Of a stretch of 10,772 nucleotides of DNA, positions 1,796-10,559 are shown piece by piece. Source of the DNA: an uncultured Bacteroidales bacterium (lineage in GTDB: Bacteria; Bacteroidota; Bacteroidia; Bacteroidales; Muribaculaceae). The DNA lies in assembly GCA_947175585.1 (NCBI GenBank), contig CAMWNL010000014.1:1-10772 (forward strand). The letters are read 5' to 3'. Position 1 is the stretch's first letter. Each line of letters begins with the position of its first letter. Under the pieces are notes generated by a model. It saw only the letters and a program-made list of their open reading frames with translations, was not told the origin of the DNA and did not search any database. A program made the position numbers and the translations under genes.

Positions 1796-3226
1796 ATGGC
1801 TAACAAAACACTTGAAGATTTATATATAAAATATGTCGGCAGCCAGCCGACATCGATTGATGAATTGCCGTCATCGGGATCCAATCGACGTTATTTTAGA
1901 TTACATGGTGAACAGGATTTAATTGGCGTTATCGGTACTTGTACTGAGGAAAATGATGCCTTTATATATATGTCTGATCATTTCAGAAAGCAAGGTTTGA
2001 AAGTTCCTCAAGTCGTTGCAGTTGCAGATGATCAGATGTCTTATCTTCAGGAAGACCTGGGGGATACTTTGCTCTTCAAAGCGATTGAAAAGGGTAGGCT
2101 GACCCGATCTTTTTCTGTAGATGAGCGAGATCTTCTGATTAAAACGATAAGAGCTTTGCCTGATTTGCAATTTGTAGGAGCTGTAGGTTTGGATTTTAAC
2201 TATTGTTATCCATCCTCGCAGTTTGATGTCCGCACGATAATGTGGGATCTCAATTACTTCAAATATTGCTTTTTAAAGGCTACAGGCTTGGAATTTCAGG
2301 AAGACAGGCTTGAAGATGATTTCCAAGCATTGGCTGATGTTTTGATGCGTTCTCAATCAGGAACATTTATGTATCGTGACTTCCAGTCGCGCAACGTAAT
2401 GATTAAGGATGGTGAACCATGGTTTATTGACTTTCAAGGTGGGCGCAAGGGCCCGTTTTACTACGATGTAGCTTCTTTTTTATGGCAGGCGAAGGCAAAC
2501 TATCCGGACTCACTACGTCAGGAGCTGATAGGTGAATACATTGATTCTCTGCGCAAATATCAATATATCGATGAGCAGTACTTTATGGAGCAACTGCGAC
2601 ATTTTGTTCTGTTCCGCACGCTCCAGGTGCTTGGTGCCTATGGCTTCCGTGGCTACTTTGAGAAAAAGCCTCATTTCATGCAGAGTGTTCCGTTTGCGAT
2701 TGCTAATCTCCGTACACTGCTTGACAGGCCATATACTGAATATCCTTATCTCAATCAACTTCTTGAGCGACTTGTCAACCTAAAGCAATTTTCTGATGAT
2801 CTCCAGCGTAAGGCTTTAACCGTAAAGGTTATGAGTTTTGCTTACAAGAAAGGAATTCCCAATGATACATCGGGCAACGGTGGTGGATTTGTGTTTGATT
2901 GCCGTGGAGTTAATAATCCGGGTAAGTATGAGCGTTACAAGCCATTTACCGGTCTTGATTCACAGGTGATAAAATTCCTTGAAGACGATGGCGAGGTCAA
3001 TGTTTTCCTTGATAATTGCTATAGGTTGGTCGACGCGTCTGTTGCACGTTACAAGGAGCGTGGTTTCACTAATCTGATGGTTTGTTTTGGATGTACTGGT
3101 GGTCAGCATCGCTCAGTGTACTGTGCGCAACACATGGCGGAGCATATTCATAAGAATTTTAATGTAAAGGTCGAGCTTGTCCATCGAGAGCAAAATATCG
3201 AACAGAATTTTTCTGTTAAAGATTGA
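1796..3226 (+). CDS. AmgK-like sugar kinase (APH fold) fused to a RapZ C-terminal domain
   Basis: This 476-residue protein has two parts. Residues 1 to about 330 form an aminoglycoside-phosphotransferase-type kinase. The N-terminal nucleotide-loop region has SNRRYFRL (29-36), like the AmgK family. The catalytic loop is YRDFQSRN (193-200) with probable catalytic base D195, and the metal-binding segment is IDFQGG (211-216), followed by GPFYYDVASFL. The usual His of the HxD motif is Tyr193. Residues from about 341 match the C-terminal domain of RapZ: SFAYKKGIP, FVFDCRGVNNP, TGLD, and the loop GCTGGQHRSVY (432-442). The P-loop NTPase domain that makes up the N-terminal half of E. coli RapZ is absent; the kinase takes its place. 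Known: AmgK phosphorylates MurNAc/GlcNAc at C1, and the RapZ C-terminal domain binds glucosamine-6-phosphate. Inferred: an amino-sugar anomeric kinase sensing an amino-sugar phosphate. The substrate is unproven. The downstream nucleotidyltransferase starts only 10 bases after the stop, which supports a shared pathway. Confidence 0.9.
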   Translation: MANKTLEDLYIKYVGSQPTSIDELPSSGSNRRYFRLHGEQDLIGVIGTCTEENDAFIYMSDHFRKQGLKVPQVVAVADDQMSYLQEDLGDTLLFKAIEKGRLTRSFSVDERDLLIKTIRALPDLQFVGAVGLDFNYCYPSSQFDVRTIMWDLNYFKYCFLKATGLEFQEDRLEDDFQALADVLMRSQSGTFMYRDFQSRNVMIKDGEPWFIDFQGGRKGPFYYDVASFLWQAKANYPDSLRQELIGEYIDSLRKYQYIDEQYFMEQLRHFVLFRTLQVLGAYGFRGYFEKKPHFMQSVPFAIANLRTLLDRPYTEYPYLNQLLERLVNLKQFSDDLQRKALTVKVMSFAYKKGIPNDTSGNGGGFVFDCRGVNNPGKYERYKPFTGLDSQVIKFLEDDGEVNVFLDNCYRLVDASVARYKERGFTNLMVCFGCTGGQHRSVYCAQHMAEHIHKNFNVKVELVHREQNIEQNFSVKD

Positions 3227-3236
3227 ATGTTTCGAT

Positions 3237-4013
3237 ATGAAAGCGATGGTGTTTGCTGCCGGTCTTGGTACCCGGCTTAAACCTTTTACCGACCATCATC
3301 CTAAGGCTTTGGCCGAAGTATGTGGACATCCTATGCTTGGTATAGTTATTGAGCGTTTAAAAAGGTATGGAGTCGACGAAATTGTCGTGAATGTGCATCA
3401 TTTCGCTGATCAGATTATCGATTATCTGCATAAGAATGACAATTTCGGGATAACGATTCATATCAGTGACGAGCGTGAGTTTCTGCTTGATACAGGTGGT
3501 GGGATTTTGCATGCGCGCCACTGGCTTGATGGTGATGAATCATTCATAGTCCATAATGCTGACATTTTAACAGATTTCGACATAGACGGAATGGTAATGA
3601 AATCTAAGTCAAATGATGCGATGGCTACCTTGCTGGTTGCAGAACGCTCGACAAAGCGGTATCTTCTTTTTGATAAATCCGATATGCGCATGAGAGGATG
3701 GACCAATATTGATACAGGAGAATTGCGTCCAGGGAATCTGGGAAGTATTGAAAATCTCGACCTTCTTGCATTTGGAGGAGTTCACGTCGTCTCACCACAG
3801 ATTTTTCCATATTTGGAAGCTTTTGCGGCGACTATTCCGGTCCAGGCTGAATCTGTGATACCGAAATTTTCCATTATGGATTTTTATATTTCACTCTGCC
3901 ATCAGCTCCGGTTCTATGGATATATTCCGGCTTCTCCCTACAGTTGGCACGATATAGGCAAACCGTCATCTCTTCAGGCTGCAGAAGAGGGCTTCAATGA
4001 GATCTCACTCTGA
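3237..4013 (+). CDS. MurU-like sugar-1-phosphate nucleotidyltransferase
   Basis: The 258-residue product is a nucleotidyltransferase of the GT-A-like NTP_transferase family, which joins a sugar-1-phosphate to an NTP to give an NDP-sugar and pyrophosphate. The N-terminus has the signature GLGTRLKP (9-16) and PKAL (22-25), which bind the nucleotide. The probable metal-binding aspartates are D109 in HNADIL and D239 in WHDIGKP. Other family segments are VNVHHFADQI (51-60), LLDTGGGI (83-90) and FGGVHVVSP (179-187). ATG 3237 is chosen because it places the signature at residue 9, as in the family. An upstream ATG at 3177 would overlap the kinase gene by 50 bases and add 20 residues with no family match. 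Size and motifs are close to MurU (MurNAc-1-phosphate uridylyltransferase), and the AmgK-like kinase lies directly upstream. Glucose-1-phosphate thymidylyl- or mannose-1-phosphate guanylyltransferase activity cannot be excluded from sequence alone. Confidence 0.9.
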   Translation: MKAMVFAAGLGTRLKPFTDHHPKALAEVCGHPMLGIVIERLKRYGVDEIVVNVHHFADQIIDYLHKNDNFGITIHISDEREFLLDTGGGILHARHWLDGDESFIVHNADILTDFDIDGMVMKSKSNDAMATLLVAERSTKRYLLFDKSDMRMRGWTNIDTGELRPGNLGSIENLDLLAFGGVHVVSPQIFPYLEAFAATIPVQAESVIPKFSIMDFYISLCHQLRFYGYIPASPYSWHDIGKPSSLQAAEEGFNEISL

Positions 4014-4040: not shown

Positions 4041-5102
4041 ATGAAAAATCTTAAATTTAGTACAACTATCGCAAGCTTGCTGATGCTTGTCTCATCATGC
4101 ACCAGTAAACAGCCTGAACAACTCAATGAAGTGTATTTTACAGATAATGGTATTGTTTACGACGAGACAGAGCTTGTAGTATCGGATACACTTCGTTCAG
4201 AAGTCATTCAAAAGGATCGTATTGGTATTTGGCGTCTTTTAGTCGCTGATTCGATCCTGTGTTGCCAAACGATTGATCTACCACACAAGTTTGAACTTTA
4301 CTCTATAGACGGAGATTCGTTGGCAGGTATTGGTTTGCGTGGGAATGGGCTGAATGATTTTGCGACAGGGAGTCTTAACGGTGTTATAGATAACGAAGCT
4401 GGTGACCTTGGAGGGGTTGTTGATACTAACAACGCAATGCTGAAGCGTTTAAACTTATCAAAGTCTATAGATCGTGGCAAAAGCATAGTCGACAGCATGT
4501 ATAGAATTCCAGGATATACAGTAGATGCTTTCTTAGTCGACGGCAAGCTAATATATCCGCAAATGGTTCCAGGCTCCTTTAATCTACTTATTGCTGATGG
4601 CGAGAATGGTGAAAATGTCATCTATAATGAACCTCTATACCTGGTAGATTTCGGACAGAGTTTAATGTCTGCATATCATTCTTTTAAGAAAATTTCTCCA
4701 AATGGAAAATATTTTGTGAATCCCATGCTGGCAATAAATCAAGTCAACATACTGAATCTCGAAGATATGTCACGACTGGCGGTGTCAATCGGTAATGTCA
4801 AAAAGCAGGATGAAGTATTAACGGATCGCGGACCGGCTCATTACTATTATATCGGTTTGACTCTCAGTGATGACAATATTTTTGCTCTCTACCATAACAT
4901 ATCCACTGATGCAGATATGGAGGCTCAAGAAGCAAATTTTCGCCAACTTCATGTATTTGACTATAATGGCAATCTGAAAGGCGTTTATCCATTTGATAAG
5001 GTAATATACGATGTATCCTATTCGCCAGTTGATAATTCATTATATGCAATTACAGCCGACGAAGAAATTTGTCGCTATAGGTTGCCTGACTTCAATAAGT
5101 AA
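4041..5102 (+). CDS. BF3164-like lipoprotein (probable six-bladed beta-propeller)
   Basis: The 353-residue product starts with a lipoprotein signal peptide: charged MKNLK, a hydrophobic stretch, and a lipobox ending LVSSC with lipidated Cys20. The mature part contains FELYSIDGDSL followed by GLRGNGLNDF (98-107), resembling the G-x-G-x-x-[DE]-F signature of Bacteroidota BF3164/TolB-like six-bladed propeller lipoproteins. Other blade-like segments are ISPNGKYFV (218-226), LHVFDYNGNLKGVYPF (313-328) and VSYSPVDNSLYAI (335-347). It should sit in the outer or inner membrane facing the periplasm. No catalytic residues are recognisable. The gene starts 27 bases after the nucleotidyltransferase and probably shares its transcript; its role there is unknown. 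The family assignment rests on the propeller-like motifs and lipobox seen by eye, so function remains open. Confidence 0.82.
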   Translation: MKNLKFSTTIASLLMLVSSCTSKQPEQLNEVYFTDNGIVYDETELVVSDTLRSEVIQKDRIGIWRLLVADSILCCQTIDLPHKFELYSIDGDSLAGIGLRGNGLNDFATGSLNGVIDNEAGDLGGVVDTNNAMLKRLNLSKSIDRGKSIVDSMYRIPGYTVDAFLVDGKLIYPQMVPGSFNLLIADGENGENVIYNEPLYLVDFGQSLMSAYHSFKKISPNGKYFVNPMLAINQVNILNLEDMSRLAVSIGNVKKQDEVLTDRGPAHYYYIGLTLSDDNIFALYHNISTDADMEAQEANFRQLHVFDYNGNLKGVYPFDKVIYDVSYSPVDNSLYAITADEEICRYRLPDFNK

Positions 5103-5251: not shown

Positions 5252-5800
5252 ATGGCAACTAAAATTAGATTACAACGCCACGGTCGCAAGAACTACGCGT
5301 TTTATCCTATTGTAATCGCCGATAGCAGGGCACCACGAGATGGTAGATTTATTGAAAGGATAGGTTCTTATAATCCGAACACTAATCCTGCTACAATTTC
5401 TCTTAACTTCGAGCGGGCTTTGTATTGGGTGAATGTCGGTGCTCAACCTACCGACACTGTTCGTTCAATCCTTTCTAACGAAGGCGTTCTCCTGATGAAA
5501 CATCTTCAGGGTGGCGTTAAGAAGGGTGCATTTGACGAAGCAGAAGCGCAGCGTCGTTTCGAAGCTTGGAAGGCTAACAAGATTGCATCTGTTGACAAAC
5601 TCAAAGCAGATATGGCTTCTAAGAAAGAAGTAGCTTTGAAAGAACGTCTTGATGCCGAAACCGCTAAGAATAAAGCAAAAGCTGAAGCTGTTGCTAAGAA
5701 AAAAGCTGAAATAGCCGCTGCTGCCGCTGAAGCTGCAAAAGAAGCTGAAGAAGCAGCTAAAGAAGCCGAAGCTCAGACTGAAGCACCTGCTGCAGAATAA
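5252..5800 (+). CDS. rpsP: 30S ribosomal protein bS16 with a long Ala/Glu/Lys-rich C-terminal tail
   Basis: bS16 binds 16S rRNA during small-subunit assembly. The N-terminal part is a clear S16 domain: [20 protein letters not shown] (5-24), then [16 protein letters not shown], and [20 protein letters not shown]. The core ends near residue 82, the full length of the E. coli protein, but this protein is 182 residues. The added 100 residues begin with [26 protein letters not shown] sequence, become lysine-rich, and end in repeated AA/EA/KEA units, predicted as a long charged helix. Extended S16 proteins of this kind are common in Bacteroidota. The gene stands alone between its own promoter and terminator; the rimM and trmD partners found next to rpsP in E. 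coli are absent here. Confidence 0.97.
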
Positions 5801-5962: not shown

Positions 5963-8900
5963 ATGAAGAAATTTACTGAATATACTGGTTTTAATCTCTC
6001 TGAGATTAACAAGCAGATGCTTGAAAAATGGCGTAAGGCGAATCTTTTTGAAGAGAGCCTTAAGGCAAGAGAGGGTTGTCCTTCGTTTGTATTTTTCGAA
6101 GGTCCTCCATCGGCAAACGGTATGCCGGGCATTCATCATGTTATGGCGCGTACAATCAAGGATATCGTGTGCCGATATAAAACCATGAAAGGATTTCAAG
6201 TGAAACGTAAAGCTGGTTGGGACACTCACGGTCTGCCGGTTGAACTCGGTGTTGAAAAAGCTCTTGGTATCACTAAAGAGGATATTGGTAAAAAGATATC
6301 AGTTGATGACTACAATGCGGCCTGTCGTAATGAGGTCCTCAAATACACAAAAGAGTGGGAGACTCTTACTGAGACTATGGGTTATTGGGTCGATATGACC
6401 GATCCATATATCACATACGATAATCGCTATATCGAAACTTTATGGTGGTTGCTCAAGCAAATCTACGATAAGGGATTGCTATATAAAGGTCTCACTATTC
6501 AACCTTATTCACCGGCCGCAGGTACAGGTCTGAGTTCTCATGAGCTTAATCAGCCGGGTTGTTACCGCGATGTTAAAGACACTACGGTGACAGCTTTGTT
6601 TGAGATTTCAGAGCCACGAGAAGAAATGAAAGGGTGGGGCAAACCTTATTTTGTAGCGTGGACAACTACACCTTGGACATTGCCTTCAAATACGGCTCTT
6701 TGTGTCGGTCCCCGATTTGAATATGCGTGTGTTCGCACATATAATCCATATACAGCCGAACCCATCACGATAGTAATGGCTAAGGATTGTGTGGCTCATT
6801 ATTTTAAACCGGAAGGTCTTGAAGCTCCGATTGAAGAGTTTTCTGCTGGAGATAAGATTGTGCCTTATCGCATCGTTGCCACTTTTACGGGTGAGGAACT
6901 TGTCGGCATGAAGTACAATCAACTTATGCCGTGGGTTAAGCCGACAGAACGACTCGATGATAACGCCCCTGTTTACGTAAAGGATTTTGCAGAGGCAAAT
7001 CCCTCTAAGCTATTTACTGTAGGCAAGGATACATTCGTAGTTATGGATACGGCTGCGTTCCGAGTAATTCCGGGTGACTATGTTACCACAGAAGATGGTA
7101 CAGGAATTGTACACATTGCTCCGACTTTCGGTGCTGATGATGCCAAGGTTGCCAAGGCAGCAGGAATCCCGTCCTTATTTATGATTACTCGCAATGGTGA
7201 AACCAGACCTATGGTTGATTTTACAGGCAAGTATTATCTTCTTGACGAGTGTGCTCCTGCTTTTGTTGAGCTTTGCGTCAACGTTGATTTATATAAGAAA
7301 CATGAAGGTGATTTCGTGAAGAATGCTTATGATCCCCGTTTCAATCCTGGCGGAAAATATGATGAGGCTGCTGCATCTAAAGCGGAAGACTTGAATATCG
7401 TTATCTGCATGGAGATGAAGCAGGCTGGCGAGGCTTTCCGCATCGAAAAGCATACTCATAATTATCCTCACTGTTGGCGTACGGATAAGCCGGTCATCTA
7501 TTACCCTCTTGACAGTTGGTTTATTAAGACAACCGCGGTTAAGGATCGCCTGATTGAATTGAATGAAACTATCAAATGGAAACCGGCGTCAACCGGTTCT
7601 GGACGTTTCGGTAAGTGGCTTGAAAATCTTCAGGACTGGAATTTATCGAGAAGCCGTTATTGGGGTACACCATTGCCAATATGGCGAACCGATGATGGAA
7701 AAGAGGAAATTTGCATTGACAGTGTTGAGCATCTCTATAACGAGATTGAGAAGTCTGTTGCTGCAGGTGTGATGAAATCCAATCCATATAAAGATAAAGG
7801 ATTTGTACCTGGAAACTACTCGAAATATAATTATGAGAAGATTGATCTTCACCGTCCCTATGTAGATGATATTGTGTTGGTGTCTGAATCTGGTAAACCG
7901 ATGCATCGCGAGACGGATTTGATCGATGTATGGTTTGATTCTGGTTCAATGCCTTACGCACAGTTACATTACCCGTTTGAAAATAAGGAACTTCTCGACT
8001 CAGGGGCTGCTTATCCTGCCGACTTTATCGCGGAGGGTGTTGACCAGACTCGTGGATGGTTCTTTACTCTTCACGCTATAGGAGGCATGGTATTCGATAG
8101 CATTGCGTTCAAATCTGTTATTTCAAATGGTCTTGTCCTCGATAAGAACGGTGATAAGATGTCAAAACGACTTGGCAATGCTGTAGATCCTTTCTCTACT
8201 ATTGAGAAATTCGGATCCGATCCATTACGTTGGTACATGATTGCCAACTCTGCGCCATGGGATAATCTGAAGTTTAATCCTGAAGGTGTGACAGAAGTTT
8301 CTCGCAAGCTTTTCTCTACGCTCTACAATACTTACTCTTTCTTTGCTCTCTATGCCAATGTAGATGGATTCGATGGTACTGCACCCGAAATTCCAGTAAA
8401 GGATCGTCCTGAAATTGACAGATGGATCATATCTCTGCTTAACACCTTGGTGAAGGATGCAGAGTCAGCTCTTGATGACCTTGAACCGACCAAAGCCGCT
8501 CGTGCCATTAATGATTTTGTAATTGATAATCTTTCTAACTGGTACGTGCGCCTTAATCGTAAACGTTTCTGGGGCGGCGAAATGAATGATGATAAGCTTT
8601 CTGCTTATCAGACTCTTTACACATGTTTGCTGACAGTGGCAAAACTGATGGCTCCGATTGCGCCATTCTATTCTGATCAACTCTATCGTGATCTTACTGG
8701 TGACGATTCTTCTGTACATGTTTCGCTTTATCCCGTAGCAAACGAAGCTGATATTGATAAGAAACTTGAAGAACGCATGTCAATTGCACAACGCGTGACT
8801 TCTATGGTGCTTGCTCTTCGTCGCAAGATTAATATTAAAGTGCGTCAACCGTTGACTGCGATTATGGTGCCGGCAATAGATGATGCCCAGCGTGATGCAC

Positions 8901-9514
8901 TTGAGTGTATGAAAGATCTTATCCTTAGTGAAGTTAATGTTAAGGAATTGCGTATCGTTGGTAATGACGAGGGCATATTGGTGAAACGAGTAAAACCTGA
9001 TTTCAAGAAGCTCGGGCCGAAACTTGGAAAGCAGATGAAGGCTGCTGCTGCAGTCCTGCAGTCTCTTGATAATAATGAGATTATTGCATTTGAGAAGAAT
9101 GGTTATACTGATATCATCTTGTCTGATGGTAATACCGCACGTATTGATTTAACTGATGTTGAGATTCTGTCCGAAGATATTCCCGGTTGGCTTGTCGCTA
9201 ATGACGGTAATCTGACGGTTGCGCTTGACGTGACAGTGACACCTGAACTCCGTCTGGAGGGCCTGGCTCGTGATATAATCAACCGTGTACAGAATATCCG
9301 AAAGACTCGCGATTATGATATAACAGACCGTATCGAGATTGTTTTTGCGCCAAATCAAGAAGTTGATGATGCCATTAAGACTTTTGGTGACTATATTGCC
9401 CGTCAGGTTCTTGCCGAGAGCGTGGAGATAGCTTCACTTGATGGTAAAGATAATATCGAGATTCTTGACATCGATGGTATGGAAGTACCGGTCTGCATAT
9501 CGCTGAAGCAATAA
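5963..9514 (+). CDS. ileS: Isoleucyl-tRNA synthetase, long eukaryote-like type (IleRS2) with GIHH in place of HIGH
   Basis: This 1183-residue class I aminoacyl-tRNA synthetase activates isoleucine with ATP and charges tRNA-Ile in the cytoplasm. The first signature region reads PPSANGMPGIHH, so the four residues normally HxGH are G56-I57-H58-H59. GWDTHGLPVE is at 85-94. The CP1 editing domain has the Thr-rich TTTPWTLPSN beginning at 234 and GTGIVHIAPTFGADD at 379-393, including the conserved Asp. The second signature KMSKR is at 732-736, followed by the anticodon-binding helical domain. The C-terminus has no CxxC zinc finger as in E. coli IleRS; it carries the long region typical of IleRS2, with LRLEGLARDIINRVQNIRK. 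Length exceeds E. coli IleRS by about 245 residues. It lies first in a run with the dksA-like gene and lspA; ileS-lspA adjacency is also seen in E. coli. The altered motif predicts mupirocin resistance by analogy. Confidence 0.97.
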   Translation: MKKFTEYTGFNLSEINKQMLEKWRKANLFEESLKAREGCPSFVFFEGPPSANGMPGIHHVMARTIKDIVCRYKTMKGFQVKRKAGWDTHGLPVELGVEKALGITKEDIGKKISVDDYNAACRNEVLKYTKEWETLTETMGYWVDMTDPYITYDNRYIETLWWLLKQIYDKGLLYKGLTIQPYSPAAGTGLSSHELNQPGCYRDVKDTTVTALFEISEPREEMKGWGKPYFVAWTTTPWTLPSNTALCVGPRFEYACVRTYNPYTAEPITIVMAKDCVAHYFKPEGLEAPIEEFSAGDKIVPYRIVATFTGEELVGMKYNQLMPWVKPTERLDDNAPVYVKDFAEANPSKLFTVGKDTFVVMDTAAFRVIPGDYVTTEDGTGIVHIAPTFGADDAKVAKAAGIPSLFMITRNGETRPMVDFTGKYYLLDECAPAFVELCVNVDLYKKHEGDFVKNAYDPRFNPGGKYDEAAASKAEDLNIVICMEMKQAGEAFRIEKHTHNYPHCWRTDKPVIYYPLDSWFIKTTAVKDRLIELNETIKWKPASTGSGRFGKWLENLQDWNLSRSRYWGTPLPIWRTDDGKEEICIDSVEHLYNEIEKSVAAGVMKSNPYKDKGFVPGNYSKYNYEKIDLHRPYVDDIVLVSESGKPMHRETDLIDVWFDSGSMPYAQLHYPFENKELLDSGAAYPADFIAEGVDQTRGWFFTLHAIGGMVFDSIAFKSVISNGLVLDKNGDKMSKRLGNAVDPFSTIEKFGSDPLRWYMIANSAPWDNLKFNPEGVTEVSRKLFSTLYNTYSFFALYANVDGFDGTAPEIPVKDRPEIDRWIISLLNTLVKDAESALDDLEPTKAARAINDFVIDNLSNWYVRLNRKRFWGGEMNDDKLSAYQTLYTCLLTVAKLMAPIAPFYSDQLYRDLTGDDSSVHVSLYPVANEADIDKKLEERMSIAQRVTSMVLALRRKINIKVRQPLTAIMVPAIDDAQRDALECMKDLILSEVNVKELRIVGNDEGILVKRVKPDFKKLGPKLGKQMKAAAAVLQSLDNNEIIAFEKNGYTDIILSDGNTARIDLTDVEILSEDIPGWLVANDGNLTVALDVTVTPELRLEGLARDIINRVQNIRKTRDYDITDRIEIVFAPNQEVDDAIKTFGDYIARQVLAESVEIASLDGKDNIEILDIDGMEVPVCISLKQ

Positions 9515-9526
9515 AAATTCAATATA

Positions 9527-9910
9527 ATGTCCGAAAAGACAAGATACTCTGATGAAGAGCTCCTCGAATTTAAGGAGCTTATATTGGCAAAACTTGAAAA
9601 GGCTCGCGCAGAATACGAAAATCTCTGCGCAAGCCTTCGTATTGGCAATGGCAATGATGTAGCAGACACTTCTCCAACGTTTAAGGTACTTGAAGAAGGT
9701 GCTTCAACATTGGAACGTGAGGAAACTGCACGTTTGGCTGAACGACAGCGTACATTCATAAATCATCTTAATGCGGCATTGGTCCGTATTGATAACAAGA
9801 CTTATGGCATTTGTCGTGCTACCGGTCAGTTGATTCCAAAAGAACGATTACGAGCCGTGCCACATGCTACATTGAGTATTGACTCTAAAACTGGGCAAAA
9901 ACAATCTTGA
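9527..9910 (+). CDS. TraR/DksA-family transcription factor lacking most zinc ligands
   Basis: The 127-residue product belongs to the DksA/TraR family, whose members enter the RNA polymerase secondary channel and adjust initiation, often with ppGpp. Two helices (about 8-36 and 55-85) would form the coiled-coil hairpin. The tip has D44-V-A-D47-T-S49, keeping the two aspartates of the E. coli DksA tip (DxxDxA) while the following Ala is Ser. The zinc-finger region aligns as YGICRATG ... TLSIDSKT. The four ligand cysteines of E. coli DksA correspond here to Cys96, Thr99, Ser117 and Ser120, so only one remains and zinc binding in the usual way is unlikely. Length is shorter than E. coli DksA (151). 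It begins 12 bases after ileS and ends 4 bases before lspA, so the three genes are probably one transcript. Confidence 0.9.
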   Translation: MSEKTRYSDEELLEFKELILAKLEKARAEYENLCASLRIGNGNDVADTSPTFKVLEEGASTLEREETARLAERQRTFINHLNAALVRIDNKTYGICRATGQLIPKERLRAVPHATLSIDSKTGQKQS

Positions 9911-9914
9911 TTGC

Positions 9915-10559
9915 ATGAAAAATTCCAAAGCGTGGCTCGCCTCTGCCATTATTATATCGGTAATTGTTATTGACCAACTCATTAAAATTTGGGTCAAGAC
10001 CCGTATGTATTGGGGTGAAGATATTGAGATCTTATCTTGGTTTCATATTCGTTTTGTTCAGAACAACGGTATGGCTTTTGGCATGGAATTTGGCAGCAAA
10101 CTGTTTTTGACACTTTTCCGCATAGTAGCGGTTGGAGTGCTCGGTTGGATAATCTGGAGACTATGTAGGCGAGACTATTATCCTAAGGGATTTGTGGCTT
10201 GCGTGGCTTTGATTACCGCTGGAGCGGCAGGCAATATATTTGACTGCGTGTTTTATGGAGAAATATTCACTAACCCATATCCACCTCAGATAGCGCAGTT
10301 TGTGCCGTGGGGTGAAGGTTATGCACCGATTTTCCATGGTCTCGTGGTCGATATGTTCTATTTCCCTCTGTTCTCGTTTCAGTGGCCTGATTGGTTTCCT
10401 TTGTTAGGAGGAAAGACTTTCTCATTCTTTGATCCGGTATTTAATTTTGCTGATGCTGCTATTAGCGTAGGCATGGCTGTCCTGATAATTTTTTACTCAA
10501 AATATCTGGGTGGTGTTCCTGTTGCTGACAAAATAGAGGATAATAGCTCTGAACACTAA
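9915..10559 (+). CDS. lspA: Lipoprotein signal peptidase (signal peptidase II) with an enlarged region between the catalytic aspartates
   Basis: LspA is an inner-membrane aspartyl protease that cuts the signal peptide off prolipoproteins before the lipidated Cys; it is the globomycin target. The 214-residue product has hydrophobic segments near 7-24, 63-82, 92-106 and 177-197. Family motifs are DQLIKIWV (20-27), QNNGMAFGM (49-57), GNIFD (106-110), HGLVVDMFYF (131-140) and FNFADAAISVG (176-186). D110 and D180 match the catalytic Asp pair. In E. coli the pair is 19 residues apart; here it is 70, owing to added sequence before and after HGLVVD. Similar enlargements occur in other Bacteroidota LspA proteins. 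ATG 9915 is chosen because it puts the first membrane helix directly at the N-terminus and leaves 4 bases after the previous stop; an in-frame ATG at 9879 would overlap that gene by 32 bases. A lipoprotein gene starts at its stop codon. Confidence 0.95.
   Translation: MKNSKAWLASAIIISVIVIDQLIKIWVKTRMYWGEDIEILSWFHIRFVQNNGMAFGMEFGSKLFLTLFRIVAVGVLGWIIWRLCRRDYYPKGFVACVALITAGAAGNIFDCVFYGEIFTNPYPPQIAQFVPWGEGYAPIFHGLVVDMFYFPLFSFQWPDWFPLLGGKTFSFFDPVFNFADAAISVGMAVLIIFYSKYLGGVPVADKIEDNSSEH

Follow-up and report, generated by a model that had tools for sequence, protein, structure and literature searches.

A naturally swapped GXHH signature motif in a type 2 isoleucyl-tRNA synthetase of Bacteroidales

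In some type 2 isoleucyl-tRNA synthetases (IleRS2), the class I signature motif HXGH takes the swapped form G/AXHH, which was described and explained by Brkic et al. (2023; PMC10485003), whose main text counts it in 86 of 379 sequences, all of them IleRS2. According to that text, the tip of the motif is shifted in IleRS2, letting the third-position His replace the first, and this third His was modelled as clashing with mupirocin; two IleRS1 enzymes were inactivated by GXHH. The mupirocin inhibition constants (Ki) reported there are 6.6 mM for Deinococcus radiodurans IleRS2, whose motif is ALHH, and 8.1 μM for the same enzyme once made canonical; 1.08 μM for the HVGH and 460 μM for the GVHH form of PmIleRS2; and 0.20 μM for the HVGH and 35 μM for the engineered GVHH form of TtIleRS2, the last value indicating that a millimolar Ki does not follow from the motif by itself. 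Enzymes with exchanged motifs stayed active, and a natural reversion was inferred in Deinococcus-Thermus (PMC10485003). The first-pass annotation of the DNA studied here had linked a GXHH variant in Priestia megaterium to extreme mupirocin resistance; GVHH indeed raises the Ki of that enzyme from 1.08 to 460 μM, but the natural enzyme has HVGH and its GVHH form was engineered. Natural G/AXHH enzymes that have been measured are those of D. radiodurans and, in an earlier paper, Streptomyces griseus; the swapped S. griseus IleRS is described, in the accessible part of that literature, as lacking tRNA-dependent pre-transfer editing. The canonical bacterial IleRS1 enzymes, such as those of E. coli and S. 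aureus, have HXGH and nanomolar mupirocin Ki values.

The window (the whole stretch of 10,772 nucleotides that we analysed) belongs to a draft genome of 2.17 Mb in 409 contigs, 77% complete, and contains an ileS gene with the following features:

5963..9514, + strand: ileS, isoleucyl-tRNA synthetase assigned to type 2, 1183 residues (TIGR00392, 1008 bits against a cut-off of 621.4; tree)
6128..6139, + strand: G56-I57-H58-H59, class I signature motif, swapped relative to HXGH (translation, codons, alignments)
6356..6358, + strand: Trp132, the aligned counterpart of W130 in PmIleRS2; all five IleRS1 rows have Gln
7967..7981, + strand: HYPFE, eukaryote-like IleRS2 motif, residues 669-673 (motif as given in the accessible text of PMC4861432)
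8156..8170, + strand: KMSKR, second class I signature motif, residues 732-736, with Arg for the last Ser
8417..8860, + strand: Anticodon_1, residues 819-966 (Pfam PF08264)
8912..9490, + strand: DUF5915 C-terminal domain, residues 984-1176, with no zf-FPG_IleRS match (Pfam PF19302)

The first-pass annotation placed GIHH on the HIGH positions with the first His and the Gly exchanged, and this holds at the level of the codons, GGC ATT CAT CAT at 6128-6139, which put Gly first and His third and fourth in the motif, as in the G/AXHH definition; the span that it marked, 6101-6139, is the motif plus its PPSANGMP lead-in. In the E. coli enzyme, GPPYANGSIHIGH, the flanks GPPxANG...KD are spaced identically, so that no register shift is involved. 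The lead-in FEGPPSANGMP and the trailing KD align without gaps both to E. coli GPPYANGSI-HIGH and to PmIleRS2. The genome encodes three further class I synthetases with canonical motifs (HMGH, HVGH and HLGH), presumably its ValRS, LeuRS and CysRS-like proteins. An artefact of sequencing, assembly or alignment would have to account for the ungapped flanks here and for a motif of this type in 231 more loci, among 227 different sequences in all; the presence of the motif in every Bacteroidota locus read, together with the canonical sister synthetases, rules out a sequencing or assembly error, and we consider an artefact vanishingly improbable.

That the protein might be an IleRS2, with a long C-terminus devoid of a zinc finger, had also been proposed, and both the phylogeny and the domain content bear this out. 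In a quick IQ-TREE analysis of 71 rows (LG+G4, rooted on ValRS), the IleRS1 clade, represented by five rows only, has an SH-aLRT support of 100, and the window protein lies apart from it among the other 65 IleRS rows (SH-aLRT 99). Within IleRS2, the 59 Bacteroidota rows form one clade (SH-aLRT 99), and all of them are swapped. This tree includes a half-empty, long-branched Microbacterium row, which the program warned of as meeting the IleRS1 branch, and 12 rows flagged for unusual letter make-up. In the window protein, Pfam finds DUF5915 at residues 984-1176 and no zf-FPG_IleRS; DUF5915 is present in three of three reference IleRS2 proteins (Paenibacillus, Sutcliffiella and Rhodococcus) and in neither of two reference IleRS1 proteins. 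The finger model is found in E. coli IleRS1 and is not reported for Bacillus velezensis IleRS1, so that lack of the finger is by itself weak evidence of type.

Diagnostic residues point the same way. The window IleRS has S50 and A62-R-T-I65 where IleRS1 has Tyr (Tyr59) and NKIL, and it differs from IleRS1 at positions 50, 55, 62-64 and 132, although the two types share the reaction and the class I catalytic domain. Trp132 is present in 233 of 233 Bacteroidota rows, against Gln in all five IleRS1 rows, and HYPFE is given as a motif of eukaryote-like IleRS in the accessible text of PMC4861432. The swapped IleRS2 proteins of Nonomuraea and Rhodococcus have Phe in the Trp132 column and no clear HYPFE; neither feature is universal among IleRS2. 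Against solved structures, the window protein scores 825-836 bits with four PmIleRS2 sequences, 704 with 1ile_A, 551-631 with three chains labelled as cytoplasmic, and at most 310 with PmIleRS1. We take 1ile_A to be the T. thermophilus enzyme. When the comparison is confined to 57 residues around the motif, 8c8w, the GVHH mutant, gives 99.2 bits and the three HVGH PmIleRS2 sequences 90.9. Neither HXGH nor placement in the IleRS1 clade was found for the window protein, and together the tree, the C-terminal domain, the diagnostic residues and the likeness to solved structures identify it, at the level of sequence, as an IleRS2.

The closest solved relatives by sequence are the P. megaterium IleRS2 structures (PDB 8c8u, 8c8v, 8c8w and 8c9d), of which the mutant 8c8w (GVHH) has the same motif type as the window enzyme. 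The natural P. megaterium enzyme is an HVGH chain of 1032 residues whose host possesses an IleRS1 as well, whereas in the window enzyme, of 1183 residues, the swap is natural and the protein is probably the sole IleRS. The G/AXHH enzymes of D. radiodurans and S. griseus share with it the IleRS2 type, His at position 3 and Gly or Ala at position 1; the window enzyme differs from them in belonging to Bacteroidota, a phylum that the main text of PMC10485003 does not name, in having KMSKR as its second motif and in being known here from its sequence. MupA and MupB, the plasmid-encoded resistance enzymes of staphylococci, are IleRS2 relatives as well, but the window enzyme scores 752.3 and 770.7 bits with their NCBIfam models, far below the cut-offs of 1900 bits, and whereas MupA and MupB are acquired and plasmid-borne, the window ileS lies among ordinary chromosomal genes. 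Only TIGR00392, among the 15 NCBIfam models listed, scores above its cut-off, the other 14 (MupA, MupB, an ileS variant, ValRS, LeuRS and MetRS) remaining below.

The first-pass annotation had looked to the four motif positions across Bacteroidales, and the survey, carried to the phylum, finds the swapped motif in 232 of 232 Bacteroidota ileS loci examined. These loci make up 233 aligned rows: the window protein, a duplicate (L008), 117 phylum-wide genomes, 32 family genomes drawn for motif reading from 146 others, 80 named loci, chosen as the best among 174 relatives found, and two records filed as plasmids; over a 400-residue stretch they include 227 different sequences, with five identical pairs. 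GIHH accounts for 201 of the 233 rows and GVHH for 31, all of the latter from the phylum set, and the remaining row (L182) has GVHH in the piece upstream of an in-frame stop; neither HXGH nor an intermediate (HXHH or GXGH) occurs among them. The codon pattern GGN, CAY, CAY at positions 1, 3 and 4 is matched by 231 of 232 sequences, the one exception (L073) having N letters in its DNA and GIHH in its protein. Gly is encoded by GGT (87), GGC (96), GGA (39) and GGG (9), the first His by CAC (150) and CAT (81), and the second by CAT (102) and CAC (129); conservation of the motif with all synonymous codons in use excludes chance. The swap is the shared form of the phylum relatives examined and not special to the window organism. 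Among IleRS2 references from outside Bacteroidota, it is present in Nonomuraea (GVHH), Acetoanaerobium (GIHH) and Rhodococcus (GTHH), and the motif is canonical in Paenibacillus (HIGH), Sutcliffiella (HAGH) and Microbacterium (HYGH).

Other positions vary in the same alignment. The last residue of KMSKS is R in 91 of the 233 Bacteroidota rows, S in 84, H in 50 and T in 6, with a gap in two, and KMSKH is also found in two swapped enzymes from outside the phylum, the IleRS2 of Nonomuraea and that of Rhodococcus. The stop in L182 (G067:C5:1787-6529), either genuine or a sequencing error, splits the ileS of one draft genome a few residues upstream of the Trp aligned with W132. Leu724, which aligns with His582 of PmIleRS2 and Phe586 of PmIleRS1, was considered as a residue covarying with the swap and rejected: 1ile_A, whose printed motif is canonical, and the cytoplasmic 9w01_B also have Leu, and the column is mixed within Bacteroidota (L in 202 and H in 29 of 233). 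Eight more columns split the three swapped from the two canonical references, which are too few for a claim.

Natural resistance had been made to depend on this being the only IleRS of the genome. A search for a second ileS there returned one match over the cut-off and none further, and the six weaker matches fall in the ValRS-, LeuRS- and CysRS-like genes; as the genome is 77% complete, the single copy rests partly on relatives. Of the 147 family genomes, 146 gave a single ileS match (five best candidates scored per genome), the exception (G173) having two matches that are two gene halves on two contigs. The 247 phylum genomes gave exactly one match each in 246 cases (three best candidates scored), the other (G322) giving none at the threshold; these 247 include most genomes of the phylum-wide motif sample. 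The model matched all 14 control genomes, E. coli and B. subtilis among them, and IleRS1 copies should therefore be detectable. A degenerate or moonlighting paralogue, with a normal HIGH-type IleRS encoded elsewhere, could in principle sit in the missing part of the genome, but the counts in relatives, the full length and conservation of the gene, and the recurrence of its downstream genes in two named genomes make it very unlikely. The window IleRS is probably the only one in its organism.

The surroundings are those of a chromosomal gene. A TraR/DksA zinc-finger gene and then lspA follow 3′ of ileS at 9527-10559, and the order ileS, TraR/DksA, lspA recurs in Bacteroides finegoldii and Riemerella, while E. 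coli has ileS-lspA. The six closest named ileS loci, among the 174 relatives found, are 76-78% identical over the best segment and all come from metagenome-assembled genomes, of which five have Muribaculaceae in the title and one has Bacteroidales; several are from ruminant gut. A tblastn search of plasmid records matched 159, of which 142 are from Staphylococcus, and others from Bacteroides, Parabacteroides, Phocaeicola, Prevotella and Riemerella. A mobile second ileS in Bacteroidota was considered and dropped: the two plasmid-filed records that were read, from B. finegoldii (L239) and R. anatipestifer (L240), hold ileS among housekeeping genes (fabD, thiD and xylA; lepA, sufB and murA) and look like circularised pieces of chromosome, a caution for plasmid-based searches.

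Several neighbouring or reference loci deserve a separate record. Upstream in the window, 1796-3226 encodes a protein that joins an APH-type kinase domain to the C-terminal domain of RapZ and is followed by a nucleotidyltransferase gene at 3237-4013, a pair that to us resembles AmgK-MurU of cell-wall sugar recycling, plus the RapZ part. The 353-residue product of 4041-5102 has, by eye, a lipoprotein-like N-terminus and no Pfam match, and 5252-5800 encodes ribosomal protein S16 (Pfam, residues 9-67) with a long Ala/Glu/Lys-rich tail to residue 182. On the Sutcliffiella horikoshii plasmid pBH-BAT-167 (L252), the HAGH-type ileS (7959-11048) adjoins a cluster of thiopeptide type, encoding a lantibiotic dehydratase together with YcaO-like and thiopeptide-type biosynthesis proteins; genes for a CBASS phospholipase and for type I restriction are nearby. 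This ileS may be a self-resistance copy, which would hint at an IleRS-targeting peptide. On a Rhodococcus opacus plasmid (L251), the GTHH-type ileS (14956-18111) adjoins short condensation-domain and AMP-binding genes and the gene of a phosphopantetheine-binding protein, resembling fragments of a peptide synthetase cluster, and here too the synthetase is possibly a self-resistance gene.

The reading that we favour, with a probability of roughly 0.88, is that the window encodes the housekeeping IleRS2 of a Muribaculaceae-like Bacteroidales with a natural GXHH motif, in which H58 would be catalytic and mupirocin would inhibit only at very high drug. In the proposed mechanism, the shifted tip of helix α1 in IleRS2 would allow a third-position His to fit without displacing the adenine, H58 would do the job of the first His of HIGH in stabilising the transition state of amino acid activation, and it would also clash with mupirocin, so that inhibition would be expected to require very high drug concentrations, probably in the millimolar range. 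The catalytic role of H58 and the hyper-resistance follow here by analogy with the enzymes in the main text of PMC10485003; the window enzyme has the parts for G/AXHH-like behaviour, and we infer the behaviour itself. Hyper-resistance of the window enzyme to mupirocin is likely on this analogy, although the 35 μM of engineered TtIleRS2 and the Arg that ends the second motif of the window enzyme count against taking a millimolar Ki for granted.

Why the motif is retained, as distinct from how it acts, has a further candidate answer, namely that the swap is neutral or historically fixed: gained once in the Bacteroidota ancestor, perhaps when the gene itself was acquired, and retained since a return to HXGH would take several base changes, with mupirocin resistance as a by-product. 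The single all-swapped Bacteroidota clade with no intermediates in the sample fits this, as does the presence of the swap in every lineage sampled, gut bacteria that would seem unlikely to meet the mupirocin producer among them, and so do the activity of motif-exchanged enzymes and the Deinococcus-Thermus reversion as reported in the main text of PMC10485003. Reversion in other lineages, however, means that a change back is possible, and strict conservation of the residues amid synonymous codon variation indicates selection on them, though perhaps for catalysis alone. We consider the odds of such a history about even; our preferred reading of the enzyme as a working GXHH IleRS2 concerns its action, which this history does not address.

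The motif, its mechanism and its consequence are already published, and we do not claim that its presence in the phylum is unreported. The main text of PMC10485003 contains no word that starts with 'Bacteroid', and its source tree may well contain Bacteroidota; in the literature searched, with most subscription papers outside its reach, we found no statement on the motif across Bacteroidota. Likewise, no mupirocin MIC for Bacteroidota was found in that literature, including the accessible text of PMC11064412, PMC11829017 and PMC8128205. In the accessible part of the last, mupirocin resistance genes among 100 gut strains are reported in Actinobacteria only, which suggests that methods based on gene catalogues may miss the Bacteroidota case. 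Beyond these published points there remain the phylum-wide presence of the motif and the predicted resistance of gut Bacteroidota.

Together, these observations suggest that a catalytic motif usually taught as near-invariant has been replaced phylum-wide in an essential enzyme. For annotation tools, it means that a missing HIGH does not equal a broken synthetase. It is somewhat more probable than not, in our judgement, that the whole phylum, to which much of the gut flora belongs, carries out its sole isoleucine charging through a non-canonical class I site with target-level hyper-resistance to mupirocin, perhaps without tRNA-dependent pre-transfer editing. This would give a simple reason, at the level of the target, to expect Bacteroidota to be intrinsically resistant to mupirocin.
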